22,990 bases of DNA from a virus, in the IMG/VR virus record IMGVR_UViG_3300044699_000109, positions 1 to 22,990 of that record; one strand, written 5' to 3'. The notes beneath the pieces were generated by a model, which ran no database searches, was not told the DNA's origin, and worked only from the letters and a program-made list of their open reading frames with translations. How positions within the stretch are numbered: the first letter of the stretch is position 1; the number at the start of each line of letters is the position of its first letter. Shown here piece by piece: positions 4,383 to 18,932 of this stretch. Position numbers and translations under genes: made by a program.

Positions 4383-4636
4383 ATGGCGGTCCTGTCTGAT
4401 ACCGATCGAGCGGATCTCTTCGCCGAGATCAATCGCGATCGCGGCGCCATCGCCGGCATGTCGATCACGAAGGCGGACCTGCGTGCCGCGCTCAACGCGG
4501 CGGATGACTGGGCCAACACGAACGCATCCGCATACAACTCGGCGCTGCCTCTGCCGGCCCGCACCGCCATGACGGCGGACCAGAAGGCGGCGCTTCTCAT
4601 GTATGTGATCCGGAAGCGTCGCGACTCAGGGTCTGA
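4383..4636 (+). CDS. Small phage protein of the tail region
   Basis: About 84 residues. ATG 4383 has a clear GGAG (4373-4376) seven bases upstream. The sequence MAVLSDTDRADLFAEINRD, then LRAALNAADDWAN and ADQKAALLMYVIRKR is a pattern I associate with small helical phage proteins encoded beside tail or virion genes; no function is assigned. The frame as given runs into the next gene, but loss of one G at 4629-4631 would end it at TGA 4634-4636, just before the next ATG, which is the natural arrangement here. Confidence 0.5.
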
Positions 4637-4637
4637 G

Positions 4638-5144
4638 ATGGCTACGACCAAGCAGCAATTCTACGTCGGCGATGCGGAGTACCCGACGAGCAACCCTGCA
4701 ACGCCGGTGCTCACGCAGGGCACGAACTTTCCGGTCAGCGGCATCGCGTTTTCGACGCCACGACGCAGCAGACGGCCTATTTCCGCACGCGGGCTACCAA
4801 CTACGGCTCCGGCATCTCACCGCACAGCTTGACTGGTACGCCGACACAGCCACCTCCGGCCGGCATCGTCCTACGAGATCGCGATCGCGGCGATCACGCC
4901 CGATACGGACTCGCAGGACATCGAGACCAAGGCATTTGCGACAGCCCAGCAAACGGCCGACACGCACCTCGGCACGACCGGCCAGCGCGTGCACACGATG
5001 TCGGTCACCGTCAGCAACCTCGACTCGCTGGCGGCGGATGACGAGCTCGTGATCCGGCTGCGGCGCGTGCCGGCGGACGGGAGCGACACGATGACCGGGC
5101 TGGGAATCGTGACCAGCATGGTCCTGTCCTACAGCGACACATGA
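4638..5144 (+). CDS. Probable virion/tail structural protein, frameshifted
   Basis: Composite of about 168 residues beginning MATTKQQFYVGDAEYP at ATG 4638. After frame changes in the T-run at 4749-4752, near 4816 and near 4865-4871, the pieces are FDATTQQTAYFRTRATNYGSG, LTAQLDWYADTATSG, then YEIAIAAITPDTDSQDIETK and HLGTTGQRVHTMSVTVSNLDSLAADDELVIRLRR, ending VLSYSDT at TGA 5142-5144. This beta-rich order (WYAD, AITP..D, GTTGQR, LAADDE, YSD) is typical of a phage virion protein seen next to LamG-like tail proteins. At least three indels in 130 bases make this the most damaged gene in the window. The next gene starts on its stop (ATGA). Confidence 0.5.
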
Positions 5145-5882
5145 GCGTCCGACTCGCCGGTGGTGAGACGCTCAGCCGCACGGCGAACCTGCCGGACGAT
5201 ATTGCGTTCACCGCCTGTGGCTGGGGACGCCTCGTCGTCGACAGCAACGACTTCGTCACGGTTTGCGCACTCGAGAGCGCTACTGCGGACGCCGGCAACT
5301 TCCTGCGCCTGCAGACTGCGGGCCGATGGAACCGCACTCACCTACTTCACCGATTCGGCGACGAGCAGCGCTCAGACGCTCACGGTGGGCACGGACTTCT
5401 TCTGGGCCATCATCTGCTCGGGCCTCACCGTCGGGGCGCACGTCGGGTACTACCGCGCCTCGACCGCCAACACCCTGACCACGCTCACGATGTCGGGCGG
5501 CTCGCGCGTCAACATGACGCCCGCCCTGCTGCGGTTCGGCAAGACCAGCGAGACGGGCGCGGCAGGCTGGAACGGCCGGCTGTGGAACATCAAATGCTGG
5601 AACCGCGCGCTCACGGCCGCCGAGCTTCTGATCGAGAGCTTCTACACGCGGGTGATGTACCCGAGCTCGATCAATTTCCACTGGCCGCTGCGCAACGCAA
5701 GTGACACGCGGGATCTTTCGGGCAACGCCCGCTCGCCCACCACTGCCGGATCGCTTGCGACCGAGGACGAGCGCGGCTTTTTTGGCCCTCGCCGTCGCGT
5801 GTTCATCCCGGCTGCTGCGGCCGCCAGCTTCGAGTCCGCATGGGCCCGTAACGCGAATACGGTGCTCGGGGTGCGCCCGTGA
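5141..5882 (+). CDS. LamG/concanavalin-like tail protein, frameshifted
   Basis: Composite of about 247 residues from ATG 5141. The visible order is FTACGWGRLVVDSNDF, NFLRLQTA, DGTALTYFTDS, DFFWAIICSG...VGYYRAS, FGKTSETGAAGWNGRLWNIKCWNRALTAAELLIE. The last block (NGRL..IK.WNRALTAAE) is a hallmark of LamG/concanavalin-A-like jelly-roll domains, common in phage tail fibres and decorations that bind sugars. The last 60 residues contain FHWPLRNASDTRDLSGN and end at TGA 5880-5882. One frame change lies near 5318-5324. It overlaps its neighbours by four bases at both ends, so it belongs to the tail-protein operon. Sugar binding is inferred from the fold. Confidence 0.55.
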
Positions 5883-7066
5883 AGAAGTCGGTGGCCGGGC
5901 AAGTCGTGGGCGCACAAATGGTGAGCGCCACCGATGGATCCGCTTTCACCAGCGCCGTCACAGTCTCCGTCACGGGCGACGGCGGCACGCAGGCGACAGG
6001 CTCAGTAGGTTCTGGCGCCTGCACGCACGAAGGTAACGGCTTTCACACCTATGCCCCCGCACAAGCCGAGACGAACTACGACCACGTCGCTTTCACCTTC
6101 ACCGGCTCAGGTGCGGTGCCCGCCACGGTGCAGATCTATACGACCTTCCCGCAGACCGGGGACAGCTTCGCGCGCGTGGGTGCGCCAGTGGGCGCCTCCA
6201 TCTCGGCAGACGTGGCTGCGGTCAAGGCAGTACTGCCATCGGCCCTGGTCAGTGGCCGTATCGATGCAAGCGTCGGCGCGATGGCGGCGAACGTGCTCAC
6301 CGCTACAGCCATTGCCGCGGATGCCATCACAGATGCCAAGGTCGCAAGCGACGTGACGATCGCCTCGGTGACGGGTGCTGTCGGTTCGATCGCCAGCGGT
6401 GGAATCACGGCGGCCAGTTTCGCAGCAGACGCCATTACGGCGGCGAAGGTCGCTGCCGACGTCGGAACGGAAATCGGCACGGCCGTTTGGGGCCACCACT
6501 ACGCGCTTGCTTACGGCCGGCACCAATATCGCCCTGGCCAAGGGAACCGGCGTGACGGGGTTCAACGATCTGGACGCCGCCGGGCTCGAAGTGCCGTAGG
6601 CCTCGCGTCCGCGAATCTCGATACGCAGATCGCAACGCTTGCCACGGCGGCGAACCTTTCCACAGTTGCCGGTTACCTCGATACCGAAGTGGCCGCCACG
6701 CTCGCCATTGCGAACAAACTCGACACTGCCATGGAGCTTGACGGCGCCGTCTATCGCTTTACCACGAACGCACTCGAGCTTGCGCCAGCGGGGGGCGCCG
6801 GCCTCGATGCAGCGGGTGTGCGCGCTGCATTGGGGCTGGCTTCTGCGAATCTCGACACGCAACTGGATGCCCTGCCAACCAATGCCGAGCTGGCAACAGC
6901 CCTTGGCACAGCAGACGATGCAGTGCTGACCGTAGTGAATGCGATCAAGACGAAGACAGACAGCCTGACATTCACGGTCGCCAACCAGCTCGATGCAAAC
7001 ATCCAGAGTGTCAACAGCGCCAACGTCACGGGCGACGGGCAACCCGGATCGGAATGGGGGCCGTGA
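5879..7066 (+). CDS. Tail-fibre-like protein with repeats
   Basis: 395 residues from GTG 5879, which overlaps the previous stop. The N-terminal part (MKKSVAGQVVGAQMVS...VTVSVTGDGGTQA) is a beta domain seen at the start of phage fibre-like proteins. It is followed by a long alanine/serine-rich region with helical repeats such as TAIAADAIT, AASFAADAIT and GLASANLDTQ, typical of trimeric fibre shafts. GLASANLDTQ occurs twice (6599-6628 and 6833-6862). Between about 6494 and 6595 the listed frame reads unlike the rest (Arg/Gln-rich), while the adjacent frame gives TRLLTAGTNIALAKGTGVTGFNDLDAAG, so a pair of compensating indels is likely. No adhesin tip domain was recognised, so it may be a fibre stem or a linker to the next protein. 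Confidence 0.6.
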   Translation: MKKSVAGQVVGAQMVSATDGSAFTSAVTVSVTGDGGTQATGSVGSGACTHEGNGFHTYAPAQAETNYDHVAFTFTGSGAVPATVQIYTTFPQTGDSFARVGAPVGASISADVAAVKAVLPSALVSGRIDASVGAMAANVLTATAIAADAITDAKVASDVTIASVTGAVGSIASGGITAASFAADAITAAKVAADVGTEIGTAVWGHHYALAYGRHQYRPGQGNRRDGVQRSGRRRARSAVGLASANLDTQIATLATAANLSTVAGYLDTEVAATLAIANKLDTAMELDGAVYRFTTNALELAPAGGAGLDAAGVRAALGLASANLDTQLDALPTNAELATALGTADDAVLTVVNAIKTKTDSLTFTVANQLDANIQSVNSANVTGDGQPGSEWGP

Positions 7067-9591: not shown

Positions 9592-11855
9592 ATGGCTGAC
9601 GACTCAGACAAAGAACCGGGAAAGCTCGACAAAAAAGCGCTACTCAAGCGCATCCGCGAGCGCTGCACCGCCATGATTGAGGGCGATCGGGAGAACCGCG
9701 AGGATGCGAAGGCGGACATCCGCTTCGTGTCCGTGCCGGTGTGAGCAGTGGGATGCGAGGGTAAAGCAGGCCCGTAATGGGCGCCCCTGCTATGAGTTCG
9801 ACAAACTGTCGATCAAGGCCCAGCGCGTCACCAATGAGATGCGCGCCAACCGCCCGGCCGGCAAGGTGCGTGCGGTGGAGGACACCGATAAGCCTACCGC
9901 CACGGTACGCGAGGGTATCTGCAGAAACCTCGCCAACGTCAGCGACCTCGACACTATCTGCGATTACGCCGGGATGTACCAGACCGAAGGCGGCATGGGC
10001 GCTTGGCGTGTGGTCACGGAATATGTGCCGGACACCCTGAAGAAGCAGCGTATTCGGGCAAAACCCATCCCAAATCCGTTTTGTCTGTACTGGGATGAAA
10101 GCTCGACCGATCCGCTGAAGCGCGATGCGCGCGATTGGTGCCTCATCGATTCACTTCCGAAGTCCGTATATGCCGCCAAGTACGGCAAGAAAGCCAAGAA
10201 GGTGAGCTTCGAGCCCGGCGACTGCGCGGACGATCCGGACTGGGACAACGAGGAGGAAATTCGCGTCTGTGAGTATTGGTACAAGGAAACTTATGAAAAG
10301 GAGTTGTGGCTCCTTCAGAACGGCAAAACGATAGATCCTGCCAAGGAAGAGAAGCGCCGACCAGGCAGCCTGGCTCAGCTCGAAACAATGGTTAAGGAAA
10401 AGGGTCAGGTTGACTGCGATCGCATCATGATGTGCATCGCGTCTGGTGACGCCATCATCGAAGGGCCGCTTGAGCAGGCCGGGCGTAACCACCGTTTCAT
10501 CGTCGTGCACGGTGCGTGGAAGATTGTGGACGGCAAGCCCAAATGGTGGGGAATAGTCCGCAAATCGAAGGACGCGCAAAAGAGCTACAACGTTGAACGC
10601 ACGGCATACGTCGAGGACACCGCGTCGCCCAACAATCAATTCTGGGCAACCGCCAAGCAGGCGGCAGGACAGACCGATACCTGGGATCGCGCGCAGACCG
10701 AAAACCTGCCTTATATGCTTTACAACGCTGACCCGCAGGCGCCTGGTCCTCCGCAAAGGATGCAATCGACGCCAGTCCCGCGGCTCGCGTGCAGGCCATG
10801 ATGATGGCTGATCAGGAGATGAAGGACGTAACAGGCGTCCTATGACGCTGCGCTGGGTGAACGCTCAAACGAGAAGTCTGGCGTCGCGATCAGCCGTCGA
10901 GAGCAACAGACGCAGCTCGTCAACTTCAACTATCCCGACAACATGGCGAAGGGCGTCCAGCGCACGTGGGAGATCTTTAATGACCTCATCGGCGAGGTGA
11001 TGGATACCGAGCAGATCACGCGCACGCTGGGTGTGGATGGCGCAGAGGATTACGTCAAGGTCAATACAGTCGGAATGGATGAGAAGGGGCAGCCGATCAT
11101 CGTCAATGACCTGACCACGGGCGAGTTCGACATTACGGTGACGGTGGGTCCGAGCTATGCGACGCAGGCGCAGGAGGCAAGCGAGTATTACTCGACGATG
11201 GCGCAGGCCGATCCGCTGCTGATGCAGACAGCTCCAGACCTCGTGTACAAGGCCGCGCAAACGCCGTATGCCGATGAGATCGCGGAACGACGCCGCGCAA
11301 TGCTACCGCCTCCGATTCTAGAGATCATCAACAAGGACAAGAAGCTGCCGCCTGAAGTGACCGCGGCCATGCAGCAGGTCAAGCAGATGCAGGACATGGT
11401 CGCCCAGCATGCGCAGCTCGTGCAGGCTGCGGCGGCTGAAGCGGACAAGAGCAAGGGCGAAGTCGAGAAAGCGATCAGTGACCTGAACGTCAAGCGCTGC
11501 GCAGTTCGATGCCGACGTGGCAAAGTCGCTCGCCCAGCTTGCGCAGAAAGAGGCTGGGCTCGTATTGCAGGAAGCGAAGATGGTTGCCGGAGCTGCAACC
11601 GAGGAGGCCGACTCCACGCGCGAACAGCTTGCCAGCGACGTGCAGAACGCGGTGAGCGAGATCGGGCAGCGCTCGAGCGAGTTCCTGCAGCAGGCGTTGC
11701 AGTCGCTCGCCCAGATCCATGCGTCGAGCCAGCCACAGGTCGTCATGCAGCCCCAGCCGCTTCGCCCGCGCATCAAGGCGATCCAGCGTGGCCCGAACGG
11801 CACGCTCATTCCCCAGTACGAGGATGCGACGCCGGTTGCAGGGGCGATGCAATGA
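9592..11855 (+). CDS. Portal protein, P22 gp1-like, frameshifted
   Basis: Composite of about 754 residues (P22 gp1 has 725). ATG 9592 has an AGG about 12 bases upstream. It begins MADDSDKEPGKLDKK. After frame changes near 9735-9745 it reads EQWDARVKQARNGRPCYEFDK...VTNEMRANRP and GGMGAWRVVTEY, matching P22 gp1's QWDDW, VSEMRQNP and GVGAWRLVTDY. Further changes near 10745-10797 and 10839-10841 lead to VQAMMMADQEMKDVTG, YDAALGERSNEKSGVAI, RTWEIFNDLIGEV, VGPSYATQAQEA, and one more near 11500 opens an Ala/Gln-rich helical C-terminus (QFDADVAKSLAQLAQKEAG), the P22-style barrel. The dodecameric portal is the DNA entry and exit port of the capsid. A real decay of so essential a gene is unlikely, so these are probably sequence errors. 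Confidence 0.85.
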
Positions 11856-12913: not shown

Positions 12914-14182
12914 GTGGCCAACAATCTTCTGACCAACCTCATCATCACGCGTGAGGCCGCCCGAGTTCTGCACCAGGAAGGCACCTTCCTCACGAGTGTG
13001 AATCGGGAATATCGCGACGAGTTCGCGAAGTCCGGCATGAAAGCCGGTGACACCATCAACATGCGCCTGCCCAGCAAGTACACGGTGCGTACCAACGCGA
13101 CGTTCGCCGGTCAGGATCACTTCGAGCGCTCGACCCCGCTCGCTGTCCTCAGCCAGTACGGTGTCGACGTGTCCTTCACCACGAAGGACCGCACTCTTTC
13201 GCTCGATGACTACAGCAAGCGCGTGCTGCGCCCTGCGATGAAGCAGCTTGCGGCCAAAATCGAGTTCGACGCGCTCACCGCCGCGTACAAGGTCGTGAAC
13301 AACGGCGTCAACGCGACGACCAACACGGTGATGACCTATCGCTCGTTCCAGAAGATGGGACAGCGCCTGACGGACGAGCTCGCCCCGATCGCCAACCGCA
13401 CGGCGATCCTCGCGCCGGCAAGCGTCGTGGAGTTCCTCGACACCACCAAGGGCCTGTTCGCGGCTCAGAGCAACCTCAACGAGCAGTTCCGCGAAGGCAT
13501 GATGGGCCGCACGGGCGGCCTCGACGTCGGCGAGAACACGCTGCTGCCGCCGCATACCACGGGCACGATGGCAGGCTCGCCGCTCACCTTCGGTGCGGCG
13601 CTGGGCCTTTCGACGACGGCCAACTCGTGGGTCTCAACCACGGCGCTGTCGATCACGGGCGCCACGGCCACCGGTACGGTCAAGGCGGGCGATATCATCA
13701 CGCTGTCGGGCGTGTTCGCGGTGCATCCGGAGTCGAAGGCCAACAGCGGTCGCCTGCAGCAGTTCGTGGTACAGGCCGACGTCACGATGACGACGGCCAC
13801 CAGCACCTACACGGTGACGGTGAAGCCGGCCCTCATCTGGGGCTCAGGCAACGCGTTTCAGAACGTGGCGCTGTCGGGCGTGTCAGATACGAGCGCGCTC
13901 ACGGTCACCCGTCTGGGTGCTTCGGCTACGGCCTTCGCGCAGGATCTCGCCTTCCATCAGGATGCCTTTGCGTTCGCCTCGGTCGACCTCGAGGACATGA
14001 CGCCGTACGGCGCGGCCTGTTCGCGGGCGGTCTCGGACAACATCTCCATACGGTTCATCCAGCAGTACGCCGTGGGCAGTGACACGGTCGCCGGCCGCTT
14101 CGACGTGCTGTGGGGATTCGCGCCGCTCCTGCCGGAGCTCGCAGTCCGGCATCTGACGACTCTGTCCCTCCTCAACACGTAA
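12914..14182 (+). CDS. Major capsid protein, P22 coat (gp5) family
   Basis: 422 residues (P22 gp5 has 430), intact, from GTG 12914. It starts ANNLLTNLIITREAARVLHQEGTF, then EYRDEFAKSGMKAGDTINMRLPSKYTVR, the strongest signature of the P22 coat family in HK97-fold phages. Residues 1-220 and about 345-422 form the HK97 core; residues about 225-345 (SITGATATGTVKAGDIITLSG...YTVTVKPAL) are beta-rich and fit the inserted telokin-like I-domain. It ends AVRHLTTLSLLNT. It would form the T=7 shell with the scaffold just upstream, and a terminator follows. GTG is the only sensible start after the scaffold stop. Confidence 0.93.
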   Translation: MANNLLTNLIITREAARVLHQEGTFLTSVNREYRDEFAKSGMKAGDTINMRLPSKYTVRTNATFAGQDHFERSTPLAVLSQYGVDVSFTTKDRTLSLDDYSKRVLRPAMKQLAAKIEFDALTAAYKVVNNGVNATTNTVMTYRSFQKMGQRLTDELAPIANRTAILAPASVVEFLDTTKGLFAAQSNLNEQFREGMMGRTGGLDVGENTLLPPHTTGTMAGSPLTFGAALGLSTTANSWVSTTALSITGATATGTVKAGDIITLSGVFAVHPESKANSGRLQQFVVQADVTMTTATSTYTVTVKPALIWGSGNAFQNVALSGVSDTSALTVTRLGASATAFAQDLAFHQDAFAFASVDLEDMTPYGAACSRAVSDNISIRFIQQYAVGSDTVAGRFDVLWGFAPLLPELAVRHLTTLSLLNT

Positions 14183-14185
14183 CGA

Positions 14186-14213
14186 AAGGGGGCCCGGGAA
14201 ACCGGGCCCTTCT
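14186..14213 (+). terminator. Hairpin terminator after the coat gene
   Basis: GGGCCCGG (14190-14197), GAAA loop, CCGGGCCC (14202-14209) form a perfect 8-bp GC stem, extended by AA/TT pairs, with a stable GNRA tetraloop and a short TTCT afterwards. Its place 4 bases after the coat stop fits a terminator or attenuator that keeps coat mRNA high. The weak U-tract suggests incomplete termination, so downstream genes may still be read. Confidence 0.7.
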
Positions 14214-14215
14214 AC

Positions 14216-15074
14216 ATGGCATTCAAACACAAGCAGTCCGGCCCCGCCCCTGCATGCCTATATCTGTACGCCTGCCTACAACGGACAGGTGGACGATGCG
14301 TTCGCGCAATCGCTGGCAGAGACCGCCTTCTGTTGCCCGATGTACAACATCCAGGTCACGGCCGGGATCATCGGCAACGTCGGATTTATCGAGCTCGCGC
14401 GCAACATCTTCGTCAAGAAGTTCCTCGAAGAGCACACCGACTGCACGCACCTCTTTTTCATCGACGGAGACCTGCAGTTCGAGTCGCGCGCTTTCGTGGG
14501 GCTCGTGCGCTCGGGATTGCCGATCTGCGCCGGCATCTATCGCAGGCGTCAGGCGCACGAGGACTATCCGTTCAAGCCTGCGGAGAATCCCGATGGCGGC
14601 GGCCTGTGGTTCATCAACGACTGGCTTCAATGTGAACGGGTGCCCACGGGGTTCCTGTGCATCACGCGCGCGGTGCTCGAAGAGATGGCGAGGGATGCGC
14701 CGGTCCTGGAAGTCGCCGACCAGCCCGGTGGCGTGCCGTGGCTCTTCGACCTGAAGAAGGAAGCCATCGAGCCCGTAACCGCTCCAGGCAAGACGATTGC
14801 GCATACCTACGGGGAAGCGCGGGCGCTACTGAAGCAGGGCAAGCCTGTGGCGGGTGGGTTCCGCCTGATCGGCGAGGACTACACGTTCTGCGACAAGTAT
14901 GTCGAAAGGTACAAGTCACCGGTTCCGGTGTGGTCGAACTTCACCTTCAAGCACCACGGGTTCCAGGGCAATTTCTGGGACTACCTCAACCGGTTGAAAG
15001 ATGCCGGGGAAATGGTCAAGCACGACGGCGGCGTCGTGACGCGCGCCGACGGCAACGTGAGTTCAGCGGCATGA
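14216..15074 (+). CDS. GT-A type glycosyltransferase-like protein, frameshifted
   Basis: Composite of about 285 residues. ATG 14216 lies a few bases past the terminator hairpin. After a frame change in the C-runs at 14241-14251 it reads YICTPAYNGQVDDAFAQSL, then FIELARNIFVKKFLEE and HLFFIDGDLQFE. The DGD (about residues 83-85) is a GT-A DxD metal/nucleotide-sugar site, and the start resembles the first Rossmann strand of such transferases. Further on are GIYRRRQAHEDYPFKP and DYTFCDKYVERYKSP, a pattern of phage- and bacteriophage-encoded glycosyltransferases. It likely moves a sugar to an unknown acceptor, such as capsid protein, DNA or host LPS. Its stop overlaps the methyltransferase start (ATGA). 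Confidence 0.65.
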
Positions 15075-15676
15075 GCGCTGTCATGAAAGACAACCTCGAA
15101 GTCGTGATCGGCATGGACGGCAAGGAAGTTGACCTCACCGACTACCGCGAGCTTCTCATCGGTTGCGGCAACCGCTCGACCAAGCAGATCAAGTTCCAGT
15201 ACGTCCCGCAGCAGTTCAAGAACCTGACCCGGCTCGACATCGATCCGGACTGCAAGCCCGACGTGCTGCACGACCTGAACGTGCTGCCGCTGCCGTTCGG
15301 GGACAACTCGTTCAACGAGATCCACGCGGTCGACATCCTCGAGCACACGGGGCAACAGGGCGACTGGCGATTCTTCTTCGCACAGTTCGAAGAGTTCTGG
15401 CGAATCCTGAAGCCGGGCGGCTATCTCGTGGGTGCGTGTCCCAAGTGGGATTCGCCGTGGGCGTGGGCAGATCCCGGCCACTCGCGCGTCCTGTGTCCGC
15501 ACACGCTGATCTTCCTCGACCAGAACGGATACAACCAGGTCGGCAGCACGCCGATGACCGACTACCGTCACGTCTATAAGGGCAATTTCCGCACGGCCGT
15601 GACGACTGAAGACGTTCCCAACGGGCCTGGAAGCAGCGAAGACAAGTGGGGCTTCGTGCTCGTGGCAATGAAATAA
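15071..15676 (+). CDS. SAM-dependent methyltransferase
   Basis: 201 residues, intact, from ATG 15071 on the previous stop (a second ATG lies at 15083). Class I fold motifs are clear: LLIGCGNRSTKQ (motif I), TRLDIDPDCKPDVLHDLN (acidic motif II), LPFGDNSFNEIHAVDILEHTG (motif with the LEH turn, close to motif IV) and FWRILKPGGYLVG (motif V). These are all found in small-molecule or sugar methyltransferases; none of the DNA methylase NPPY/DPPY signatures is seen. It ends WGFVLVAMK. Coupling to a glycosyltransferase suggests methylation of a glycan or an acceptor linked to it, but the substrate is unknown. Confidence 0.8.
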   Translation: MSAVMKDNLEVVIGMDGKEVDLTDYRELLIGCGNRSTKQIKFQYVPQQFKNLTRLDIDPDCKPDVLHDLNVLPLPFGDNSFNEIHAVDILEHTGQQGDWRFFFAQFEEFWRILKPGGYLVGACPKWDSPWAWADPGHSRVLCPHTLIFLDQNGYNQVGSTPMTDYRHVYKGNFRTAVTTEDVPNGPGSSEDKWGFVLVAMK

Positions 15677-15737
15677 AAGAGACGATTTTCGGGGGTTGAG
15701 GTCGCACACCATACCCAACCAATTCGAGGTAAGAGTC

Positions 15738-16289
15738 ATGCCAGAAGCAGCCGTTAAAGATGAAGTCCGTGCGGACAAGGAAGCGAAGGACAAGGCCGCG
15801 GAAGATGCGCGAGCCGCGACCAAAGCCGCCGCCGCAGACGCCAAACGGGAGGCCGACGAACGCGCCAACACGAAATCCCACCTGAACGAGATCCTGCTGT
15901 TGCGTGGCCTTGCACGCGCGGTCTCTCCGCACGGGGCGGAGAATCTCGCGGCAGCACTCGACGGCATCGCCAACGCGATTGCTGCGGGCCGCAAGCTCGG
16001 CGATGCAGCGTTGGTGGAAGTCGCGCTGGCCCTGAAGAACCCCAATGGTGACTGGAGCGCGATGGTGAAGAGCATCGACGCGATCCTGCGGCCGACGCTT
16101 GTCCATGATCGCTCGGTGAGCGGGATTCTTGCGGCTGTCGAGCGGCGCGAGCTCACCGTCGATCAGGGCCAGCAGCTGCTGAGCGAGGTGCCCAAGACCT
16201 CCACGCCGCCGAGCAAGCCGGCATCGCCTGAGACGGATGCTGAATATCAGGCGTGGCTTGCACAGCAGAAGAGGAAGCCAGGCGAATGA
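15738..16289 (+). CDS. Coiled-coil protein, unknown
   Basis: 183 residues. ATG 15738 has a strong GAGGTAAGAG about 5 bases upstream, so I prefer it to earlier in-frame starts. The N-terminal 50 residues are a very charged Ala/Lys/Asp/Glu coiled coil (KDEVRADKEAKDKAAEDARAA). Next is a more conserved helical domain (LNEILLLRGLARAV...NLAAALDGIANAIAAG), then a short C-terminal tail. It lies between the methyltransferase and radical SAM genes, and its stop overlaps the latter (ATGA), so it may be a partner or scaffold of those enzymes. No family was recognised. Confidence 0.5.
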   Translation: MPEAAVKDEVRADKEAKDKAAEDARAATKAAAADAKREADERANTKSHLNEILLLRGLARAVSPHGAENLAAALDGIANAIAAGRKLGDAALVEVALALKNPNGDWSAMVKSIDAILRPTLVHDRSVSGILAAVERRELTVDQGQQLLSEVPKTSTPPSKPASPETDAEYQAWLAQQKRKPGE

Positions 16290-17124
16290 GCCTCGCGGCG
16301 ATGCGCAGCGCCCATATGGACTACCCGATCGAGGTATCCATCGAGACGCTGGCGCTGTGCAACGCCCGCTGCACGTTCTGCCCTATCCGACGCTTACCCG
16401 CAAGGGTGAACGAATGAGTGACGAGACGCTCGATCGGCTCGTGGACGAGGTCATCGGCTGGCAACGGCCGATGTACTTCTCCCCGTTCAAGGTGAACGAG
16501 CCGCTGCTGGACAAGCGCACGATCCCGATCTGCGAGCGCATCAATCGCGAGGCACCGGAGGTGGTGTTGCGCCTGTTTACGAACGGCGCGGCGCTGACGC
16601 CGAAGATCATCGGGCAGATCGCGGGGCTTAAGAAGGTCGCTCACCTTTGGGTGTCGCTCAACTCGCACATCCCGGAGGAATACGAGCGAATCATGGGCCT
16701 GAACTTCGAGCTGACCGCCAAGCGACTCGACTACCTGCATTCGCAGCCCTTTCCGCATCAGGTGGTGCTTTCTACGGTCGGCTATCCGAACGAGGAGTTC
16801 CGCTACTACTGCTACGAACGCTGGCCGCATTTCCAGTCGGTCGCGATAAAGCGCGACTCGTGGCTCGGCTATGTAGATGCGCAGAATACGCACGTTCCGG
16901 ACACGCCGTGCTCGAGATGGTTCGAGCTTTCGGTCATGGCGGACGGCCGCGTCGCCCACTGCTGCATGCATTCCGGTGAGGACCGCCAATACGACATCGG
17001 CGATGTGAACACCCAGACGCTGCACGAAGTCTACAACGCGCCACGCTGGCGCCAACGGCGCGAACGGATGCTCTCGCGTCGCCAGCTCGATGACACGTCC
17101 CCCTGCGCGAGGTGTAGCTACTGA
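16286..17124 (+). CDS. Radical SAM protein with SPASM-like C-terminus, frameshifted
   Basis: Composite of about 279 residues. ATG 16286 overlaps the upstream stop. The first 32 residues end in CNARCTFC (Cys25, Cys29, Cys32), the CX3CX2C of radical SAM enzymes. The reading frame then loses one base in the CCC at 16381-16383 and resumes YPTLTRKGERMSDETLDRLVDE, with FTNGAALT (barrel strand 3 motif), VSLNS and an STVG-type motif. The C-terminus has DTPCSRWFELSVMADGRVAHCCMHSGEDRQYDIGDVNTQTL and ends CARC, a SPASM/twitch-like cysteine cluster for extra Fe-S clusters. Such proteins modify peptides, proteins or small molecules via 5'-deoxyadenosyl radical. Within a phage head operon this is unusual. 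The substrate is unknown; peptide maturation is the usual SPASM role. Confidence 0.75.
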
Positions 17125-17537
17125 TGAGCATCACGAACGCCGATCTGATCGCGGACGCCCTGCGCGAGCTGAACGTCGTCAGCGAGATCCAGACGCCGAG
17201 CTCGGAGCAGTATGCGCATGCGCTTCGCAAGCTCAACCAGATGCTGGCGAAGTGGCTGGAGGACGGCATCGAGTTTGGCTTCTATCCGCAGACATCCCCC
17301 TCGGACCCGTGCCCGATTCCAGACTATGCGGAAACCGGCGTGACGCTCGCCCTTGCGATCAGCTGCGCCAGCAACTACGGCGCGACGGTGAGCCAGGAGC
17401 TGGGGGCCACAGCCGCAAGCGCCTACGACACGATTCTGCGCACGGCCATGAATGCCCGCCTGCCCGTCGGACGCATGCTCAATCGGCCTGCCGCGACGGG
17501 CGACGGGACGTTCTGGGATATCACGACCATCCCATGA
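17124..17537 (+). CDS. Tail accessory / DNA stabilisation protein, gp4-like
   Basis: 137 residues (P22 gp4 has 166), intact. ATG 17124 overlaps the preceding stop (TGATG). The order MSITNADLIADALRELNVVSE..., SEQYAHALRKLNQMLAKWLEDGIE, then ALAISCASNYGATVSQELGATAASAYDTILR is the pattern of P22 gp4-type tail accessory factors and related head-completion proteins: a helical protein that assembles on the portal and closes the neck. It sits immediately before gp10-like, as in P22. It would seal the packaged head and anchor the tail hub. Confidence 0.85.
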   Translation: MSITNADLIADALRELNVVSEIQTPSSEQYAHALRKLNQMLAKWLEDGIEFGFYPQTSPSDPCPIPDYAETGVTLALAISCASNYGATVSQELGATAASAYDTILRTAMNARLPVGRMLNRPAATGDGTFWDITTIP

Positions 17538-18932
17538 GCCAGCTCTCACTCCGATCAGCAGCTACAAGACGCGCGCGACGCAGGCGTCGACCTCGCGCCT
17601 CGTCAACTGCTATCCGGAAGCATTGCCGCCGACGCGAAGACGCCTGTGATGCTGCTTCGGGCGCCCGGTATCGGCAGCTGGACGACAGTTGGCACGGGTC
17701 CCATCGCGGGCCTTTTCTATGCGATTGGCTACCTGTTCGTGATCTCCGGCACAAAGCTCTACAAGGTCGATTCGGCGAAGACCGCAACGCTCCTCGGAGA
17801 CATCGGCACTCCGGGCAATATCGACATCGACGCGAACACGACCTCGATCGTGGTCGTGAACGAGCCCAATGCGTATTACTACGACGGCACGACCTTCGGT
17901 CAGATAACCGATCCCGATTTCACCGCTCTCGGCGCCAACAGCGTCGAGTTTCTGGATAACTTTCTGCTCTTCACCGAGCCTGACTCCGATGTGTTCTTTG
18001 GCTCGGATCTGGGCTCCGCTACTTCGTTCGACGCACTCAACTTCGCAAGCGCAGAAGGGGCGCCCGATAACCTGCTCGGGATGAAGGTCGACCACCGGCA
18101 GGCGATCCTGCTCGGTGCCAAGACGATTGAGATCTGGGACAACATCGGAAGCGCCGGTTTTCCGTTTCAGCGCGCGGCCAACGGCTTCGTCGAGATCGGC
18201 TGCCTCAATGCCGCCATGGCCTTCAAGCTCGATCAGTCCGTGTGCTGGCCGGCGGACGACTACACGATCCGCAAGCTTCAGGGCACGACCGCCGTACGTA
18301 TCTCGACGCATGCGGTCGAGCAGTTTCTGACCACGGTGACAATGGCCTCGGGGCGCGGCTACAGCTACACGCAGGACGGCCATCTCTTCGGGGTATTCAC
18401 CTTTCCCGAAGGCACCTACGTCTACGATGCGACGACGCAGGAATGGCACGAGCGCCAGAGCTACGGCTATGACTACTGGATCGCGGGCCAGTGTCACACG
18501 CAGGCATTCGGCCTGGAGCTCGTCGGGGACGCCACTTCGAGCCGCATCGGCTACCTCTCCTCGGCGATCTATGACGAGTGGGGTTCGATCCAGCGCATGG
18601 AGTGGACCTATCAGCCGGTGCTGCCGGATAGCCGCACTCCGGCCTTCCACGATCGCCTCGATATCGTCGCAGAGTCAGGCGTGGGTCTCACGAGCGGGCA
18701 GGGCTCGGCGCCCGAAATGATGCTCGACTACTCGGACGACGGCGGCAAGACGTGGCTCTCGATGCCGAACCGGACGATCGGCGCGATCGGCGACTACCTG
18801 CATCAGATCGGCTGGCCGCGCCTGGGTAGCTCGAGGAAGCCGCGCGTGTTCCGCGCCGCTGTCACGGATCCGATACAGGTCGCGATCCGTGATACGCAGT
18901 GGACCGGACGGGGCGGGAGGATTGCGGCATGA
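17534..18932 (+). CDS. Packaged DNA stabilisation protein, gp10-like, frameshifted at N-terminus
   Basis: Composite of about 465 residues (P22 gp10 has 472). ATG 17534 overlaps the previous stop. The correct N-terminus, MSQL..TPISSYKTRATQASTSRLVNCYPEALP, shifts frame near 17545 and again at 17625-17632 before continuing through ADAKTPVMLLRAPGIGSWTTVG. The rest is in one frame, with repeated beta strands of a propeller-like fold: LLGDIGTPGNIDIDANTTSIVVV, YYYDGTTFGQI, VEFLDNFLLFTEP. It ends DTQWTGRGGRIAA. P22 gp10 forms the hexameric tail hub below gp4. The motif order NCYPE...APG, then D..FG, is characteristic of the Phage_stabilise family. Confidence 0.85.

Follow-up and report, generated by a model that had tools for sequence, protein, structure and literature searches.

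A conserved glycosyltransferase–methyltransferase cassette with an optional radical SAM enzyme behind the coat gene of uncultured short-tailed phages: a candidate virion-modification system

Why would a short-tailed phage carry predicted sugar-transferring, methylating and radical-forming enzymes amid the genes that build its head? To our knowledge, the decoration of tailed-phage capsids by enzymes has been little studied, and this question is raised by IMGVR_UViG_3300044699_000109, a complete virus record from IMG/VR that spans 22,990 bases and whose whole length is hereafter called the window. Its plus strand carries, in order, the terminase large subunit, the portal, a scaffold-like gene, a P22/Sf6-type coat, the cassette, a gp4-like adaptor (Ad3) and Hc3. 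The cassette is anchored by the major coat protein gene (12914–14182, + strand; phrog_283, E 2e-63; profile match to the Sf6/P22-type coat 5l35, E 9e-16) and bordered downstream by the head-tail adaptor gene Ad3 (17124–17537, + strand; phrog_637, E 4e-21). Four genes lie between them on the same strand: a GT-A-fold glycosyltransferase (GT, 14216–15074), a class I SAM-dependent methyltransferase (MT, 15071–15676), an alanine-rich helical or coiled-coil protein (CC, 15738–16289) and a radical SAM enzyme with a C-terminal twitch domain (rSAM, 16286–17124). These borders bear out the preliminary description of four same-strand genes running from the coat to a gp4-like gene, and the four-base overlaps that it had given for the first two and the last two genes are both present in the sequence as ATGA, at 15071–15074 (GT/MT) and 16286–16289 (CC/rSAM); rSAM and Ad3 overlap by one base, at 17124. 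Directly 3' of the coat stop, the window holds a GC-rich hairpin (14188–14211, + strand; stem GGGCCCGG/CCGGGCCC), and a hairpin stem of varying sequence occupies the same place in 16 of the 16 relatives that were folded, followed by a short T tract in most of the 17 sequences inspected. This hairpin is probably a terminator or attenuator, which would fit high expression of the coat and lower read-through into the enzyme genes.

As recorded in the window, two of the cassette genes change frame. A -1 jump at ~16383 breaks the rSAM frame (16286–16381, then 16381–17124): the CX3CX2C motif sits in the frame that opens with the ATG at 16286 and stops at 16415, the remaining rSAM in the frame ending at 17124, and the closest relative is one base longer at the jump (TGCCCGTAT, against TGCCCTAT in the window). 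An extra C at ~14245 places the ATG at 14216 and the GT body (frame 14157–15074) in different frames. Relative to L050, its nearest relative, the portal gene (9592–11855) shows at least two single-base frame jumps, at ~9740 and ~11498, judging from which the record looks error-prone, and the start of Hc3 (17541–17646) is displaced by one base at ~17552, with CTCC for CTCCC. Because genes essential to the particle have similar jumps, because rSAM is unbroken in the 13 aligned relatives (proteins of 273–298 aa), and because purifying selection acts on its part downstream of the jump (dN/dS 0.10–0.16), the jumps in rSAM, GT, portal and Hc3 most likely stem from sequencing or assembly error. A programmed frameshift in rSAM was rejected, since no slippery heptamer is present, the relatives are single-frame and like jumps occur in portal, GT and Hc3; a pseudogene was discarded given the low dN/dS kept after the jump.

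Is this arrangement peculiar to one genome? IMG/VR was searched in five scans, by rSAM, MT, GT and coat, with later scans using coat, MT and GT alignments, and bias was avoided by counting only the contigs that were found through their coat and contained the whole interval (n = 57). The preliminary description had grouped the three enzyme families in one cassette, leaving their joint or single occurrence near podophage coats to be checked: GT and MT follow the coat in 53 of the 57 contigs, and all three families are present in 22, with rSAM after MT and every one of these among the 53. The other four comprise one contig with GT alone and three, bearing distant coats, with none of these genes; rSAM without GT and MT was seen behind this coat in none of the 57. 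Collected through the rSAM alignment alone, 51 rSAM contigs were nearly all ordered GT-MT-rSAM, behind the coat wherever the contig reaches it, and GT is present at all 65 MT loci having this coat nearby. Recurring in dozens of independent contigs, the arrangement thus goes beyond chance. GT, MT and rSAM evolve under purifying selection (dN/dS 0.05–0.16), with similar values for the coat. When mapped on the coat tree (65 rows), the presence of rSAM changes about 9–11 times, and at least 9; these repeated changes and the counts of 53 versus 22 contigs out of 57 identify GT and MT as the core and rSAM as optional, and strongly support, at the level of sequence, a conserved unit so composed. In L009, a remnant of the 40 C-terminal residues of rSAM (4518–4637) lies between MT and Ad3, pointing to a recent loss. 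As for the fourth gene, CC (dN/dS 0.16) matches no Pfam or PHROG family and is common to the window and L006 only; it was rejected as a member, and the four-gene cassette first proposed is reduced to a GT and MT core with an rSAM add-on.

How closely is the cassette tied to the coat gene? Coat, GT and MT are still together in nine contigs where Ad3 was not found behind the cassette, and the three of these nine that were checked carry other virion genes instead (phrog_2941, phrog_3287). Large ORFs (538–1175 aa) are inserted between Ad3 and Hc3 in L072, L079, L081 and L088. The cassette is absent from named phages with more distant coats (28–35% identity), such as PAE2, PBR31, an EBPR podovirus and phiAX1. 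In the podophage MW202691.1 (L183), a 425-aa protein annotated 'polysaccharide biosynthesis' (5028–6305) is flanked by a tail accessory factor on one side and, on the other, by an HNH gene that follows the coat; its GT domain is joined to a C-terminus weakly similar to a methyltransferase (E 0.0035), so that the protein is possibly a GT-MT fusion. Rearranged versions also exist, as MT-rSAM-GT between a T7-like head-tail connector and head genes (phrog_332, phrog_212) in L075 (9722–11438), and, in L100, as rSAM-MT-GT close to genes for tail fibre and lysozyme. In the short contig L096, rSAM is directly 3' of the portal gene. An exclusive link with the coat is weakened by the L100 arrangement and by the MT family itself, which at 16 of 88 unique MT loci has neither GT nor rSAM with it and lies near TerL or portal; it is gene order that supports the association of cassette and coat.

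Such mobility could suggest that GT, MT and rSAM are independent cargo genes gathered at one insertion spot with no joint pathway, as MT is found alone elsewhere and rSAM comes and goes (the nine or more changes above). This is quite improbable, however, in view of the joint presence of GT and MT in 53 of 57 contigs, of an rSAM that behind this coat never stands without them, and of the possible GT-MT fusion and the rearranged trios of L075 and L100, all of which speak for genes that work together.

What reactions could this unit then catalyse? GT is identified as a GT-A glycosyltransferase by its modelled fold and its motifs. Pfam gave no match to any GT family and PHROG only phrog_1574 (E 4e-14), and the sequence profile searches with GT and MT yielded no convincing solved relative. 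The AlphaFold model of the GT of L050 (pLDDT 84) has its best fold match in STIV A197 (2c0n; Z 15.2, rmsd 2.7, 164 aligned, 19% identity), and next resembles the GT domain of the lysyl hydroxylase LH3 (Z 14) and many GT-A enzymes, with 957 of 999 chains at a Z of at least 5. Among them are the polysaccharide or teichoic-acid GTs TarP and WrtF (Z ~11–12). Foldseek also matched the phage GT to the A064R-D1 structure (2p72; E 1e-3). The metal-binding DxD motif (D83-x-D85) is invariant across 20 GT relatives.

The methyltransferase is assigned by alignment and by a score of 25.2 bits against Pfam Methyltransf_11 (cut-off 21.2). Its PHROG match to a DNA methyltransferase (6e-4) was judged weak, and this function was rejected. 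The same match bears on a reading of the cassette as a set of enzymes for DNA or nucleotide hypermodification, producing glycosylated and methylated bases: DNA hypermodification by phage GTs is indeed mentioned in one statement of the literature (PMC12619734), but the genes belong to the late head operon rather than to a nucleotide-metabolism cluster and MT falls within Methyltransf_11, making this reading highly improbable. MT need not act on the product of GT, because its family also occurs without GT or rSAM. MT is duplicated in tandem within the cassette of L017 (4206–5254), and an extra gene of ~110 aa separates GT from MT in L212, L213, L215, L217 and L221, which lack rSAM and belong to one coat clade.

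Read through both frames, rSAM matches Radical_SAM (PF04055, 46.5 bits; cut-off 29.5) and SPASM (PF13186, 39 bits; cut-off 21.5). Its cluster motif CX3CX2C is CNARCTFC at 16358–16381, and C24, C28 and C31 are invariant in the 13 aligned relatives. A full SPASM domain follows the pattern CX9-15GX4C, then CX2CX5CX3C, then a final C. The auxiliary cysteines conserved in the 13 relatives are C208-x11-G-x4-C225(C226) and C269-x2-C272, where the protein ends, that is four and not seven, and a full SPASM domain was rejected. A twitch domain has four cysteines and one auxiliary cluster, SPASM seven cysteines and two auxiliary clusters (PMC9012708); with only four auxiliary cysteines conserved, the C-terminus is consequently a twitch. 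What had been called a 'SPASM-like' cluster in the preliminary description therefore holds as a radical SAM enzyme with a PF13186 match, and is better described as a twitch with one auxiliary cluster, like that of BtrN. BtrN is the top match of rSAM by profile (E 4.5e-11) as by fold (4m7t; Z 17.4, rmsd 3.6, 221 aligned, 16% identity; model pLDDT 78), a likeness that covers fold and profile only, and peptide-modifying enzymes such as EpeE and ChlB follow closely by fold (Z 15–16). A viperin identity was not recovered (NCBIfam viperin 20 bits, cut-off 180), and the padloc pVip profile matches the relative L050 weakly (7.9e-6). Cellular relatives (42–46% identity) come mostly from Betaproteobacteria MAGs, and their varied neighbours give no hint of a substrate. 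One more distant cellular relative (39% identity), in a Hyphomicrobium MAG (L121, 6303–10855), has a type 2A encapsulin operon (HK97 fold) in its vicinity; this link was dismissed as coincidence, the encapsulin having its usual neighbours of the cysteine desulfurase and serine acetyltransferase type.

Could the enzymes instead act on the side chains of a virion protein, by methylation, radical epimerisation or crosslinking, with GT working on the same protein and no methylated sugar being made? The closeness of rSAM to the peptide-acting EpeE/YydG, ChlB and SuiB in profile and fold would suit such chemistry, but a small-molecule (aminocyclitol) enzyme, BtrN, comes first in both searches, and a four-cysteine twitch suits BtrN and MoaA more than the two-cluster SPASM peptide maturases (PMC9012708). 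The coat itself was examined for residues that track the presence of rSAM, the comparison being with rSAM labels simulated along the coat tree. The segment 228–248 emerged, peaking at Thr234, with family-wise p of 0.013–0.031 on two trees, one of them built without that region; Thr234 is found in 33 of 33 coats with rSAM versus 14 of 31 coats without. When sixteen new coats, drawn from the MT and GT scans, served as a hold-out, the association was not reproduced (T in 4 of 5 with rSAM and 7 of 8 without), and coat residues were dropped as a lead to the substrate. This failure also counts against modification of side chains without a methylated sugar, which we regard as clearly unlikely.

We thus propose, at about an even chance of being right, that the cassette is a virion-modification system made late with the head genes, in which GT would place a sugar on a virion protein, MT would methylate and rSAM, where present, would add an optional tailoring step. 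The target of GT is most likely the virion, and the coat in particular, with A064R and A197 as precedents; BtrN is the precedent for the radical step. For the substrate, the sequence of steps and the purpose, we infer the following scheme. The GT-A enzyme would take its sugar from a host nucleotide-sugar and attach it to a virion protein, the coat being the likeliest; MT would methylate the transferred sugar or the growing glycan; rSAM would oxidise or epimerise a carbon of the same sugar or, with lower likelihood, modify a coat side chain; and the product might serve shielding, stability or adsorption. As gene adjacency alone cannot prove a substrate, the coat is here a candidate and not a proven one. 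A more specific version, a dedicated coat-modification pathway where a radical step on a methylated glycan or residue would take part in particle maturation and rSAM would be a switchable antigenic or adsorption trait, is possible but rather doubtful.

The same activities could also be directed at the host, with GT, MT and rSAM modifying a surface glycan or its precursor and thereby blocking superinfection or freeing progeny from receptor-bearing debris. That phage GTs change host surface polysaccharides is general knowledge, repeated in a statement of a review (PMC12619734), and the resemblance of the GT fold to TarP and WrtF goes in this direction. Against it, GT, MT and rSAM have no membrane segments (maximum 19-residue hydropathy 1.2), the search for a Gtr-type serotype conversion cassette found neither a membrane-bound GT nor a flippase beside the cassette, and the position behind the coat is fixed across the coat clade, unlike variable moron sites. 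A role on host glycans accordingly appears unlikely, although less so than the other alternatives considered above.

The GT-MT-(rSAM) cassette is real and apparently undescribed. No match to MT was obtained by tblastn in 50,697 named phage records, the same search with rSAM and two of its variants returned a single match (21–23% identity), and a literature search in open-access full text found no description of the cassette. So far, reports of capsid and tail subunit glycosylation by phage-encoded enzymes concern mycobacteriophages, in which we know of no radical SAM partner; what is new, as far as the genomes suggest, is this unusual partner in a putative setting of virus-encoded virion or glycan modification. 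Dozens of environmental, uncultured short-tailed phages carry the cassette at a fixed place, right after the coat gene, about four in ten of them with rSAM. If the virion-modification proposal is true, an entire group of phages would have capsid modification as a default trait, and relatives with and without rSAM whose coats are 90% identical, such as the window and L010 versus L007 and L009, would offer the first natural test set for each step.

Known systems provide partial counterparts. In the chlorovirus PBCV-1, A064R couples GT and MT domains, which assemble the methylated end of the glycan on the capsid (PMC9614988). A064R/A061L thus resembles the cassette in having a virus-encoded GT-A glycosyltransferase and a methyltransferase act jointly on a capsid glycan, but it concerns the N-glycans of a eukaryotic virus, with a separate domain set, no radical SAM and no close sequence relation shown. 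A197 of STIV is an essential GT, discussed as a possible coat glycosyltransferase of this virus (PMC10551542); it is, like the phage GT, a small soluble viral GT-A enzyme and the closest solved fold, whereas it belongs to an archaeal virus and has no described MT or rSAM partner. BtrN, a 2-deoxy-scyllo-inosamine dehydrogenase, oxidises an aminocyclitol with a radical SAM and twitch architecture (PMC9012708) that rSAM appears to share as its best profile and fold match, while the phage protein differs by its 16% identity, its location in a phage head operon and its status as a predicted enzyme. Finally, PMC12619734 and PMC10955285 cite Freeman et al. (2023) for mycobacteriophages that encode the glycosylation of their own capsid and tail tube subunits, which, in different phages, is what the cassette is proposed to perform: the glycosylation of virion subunits by enzymes that the phage itself encodes.
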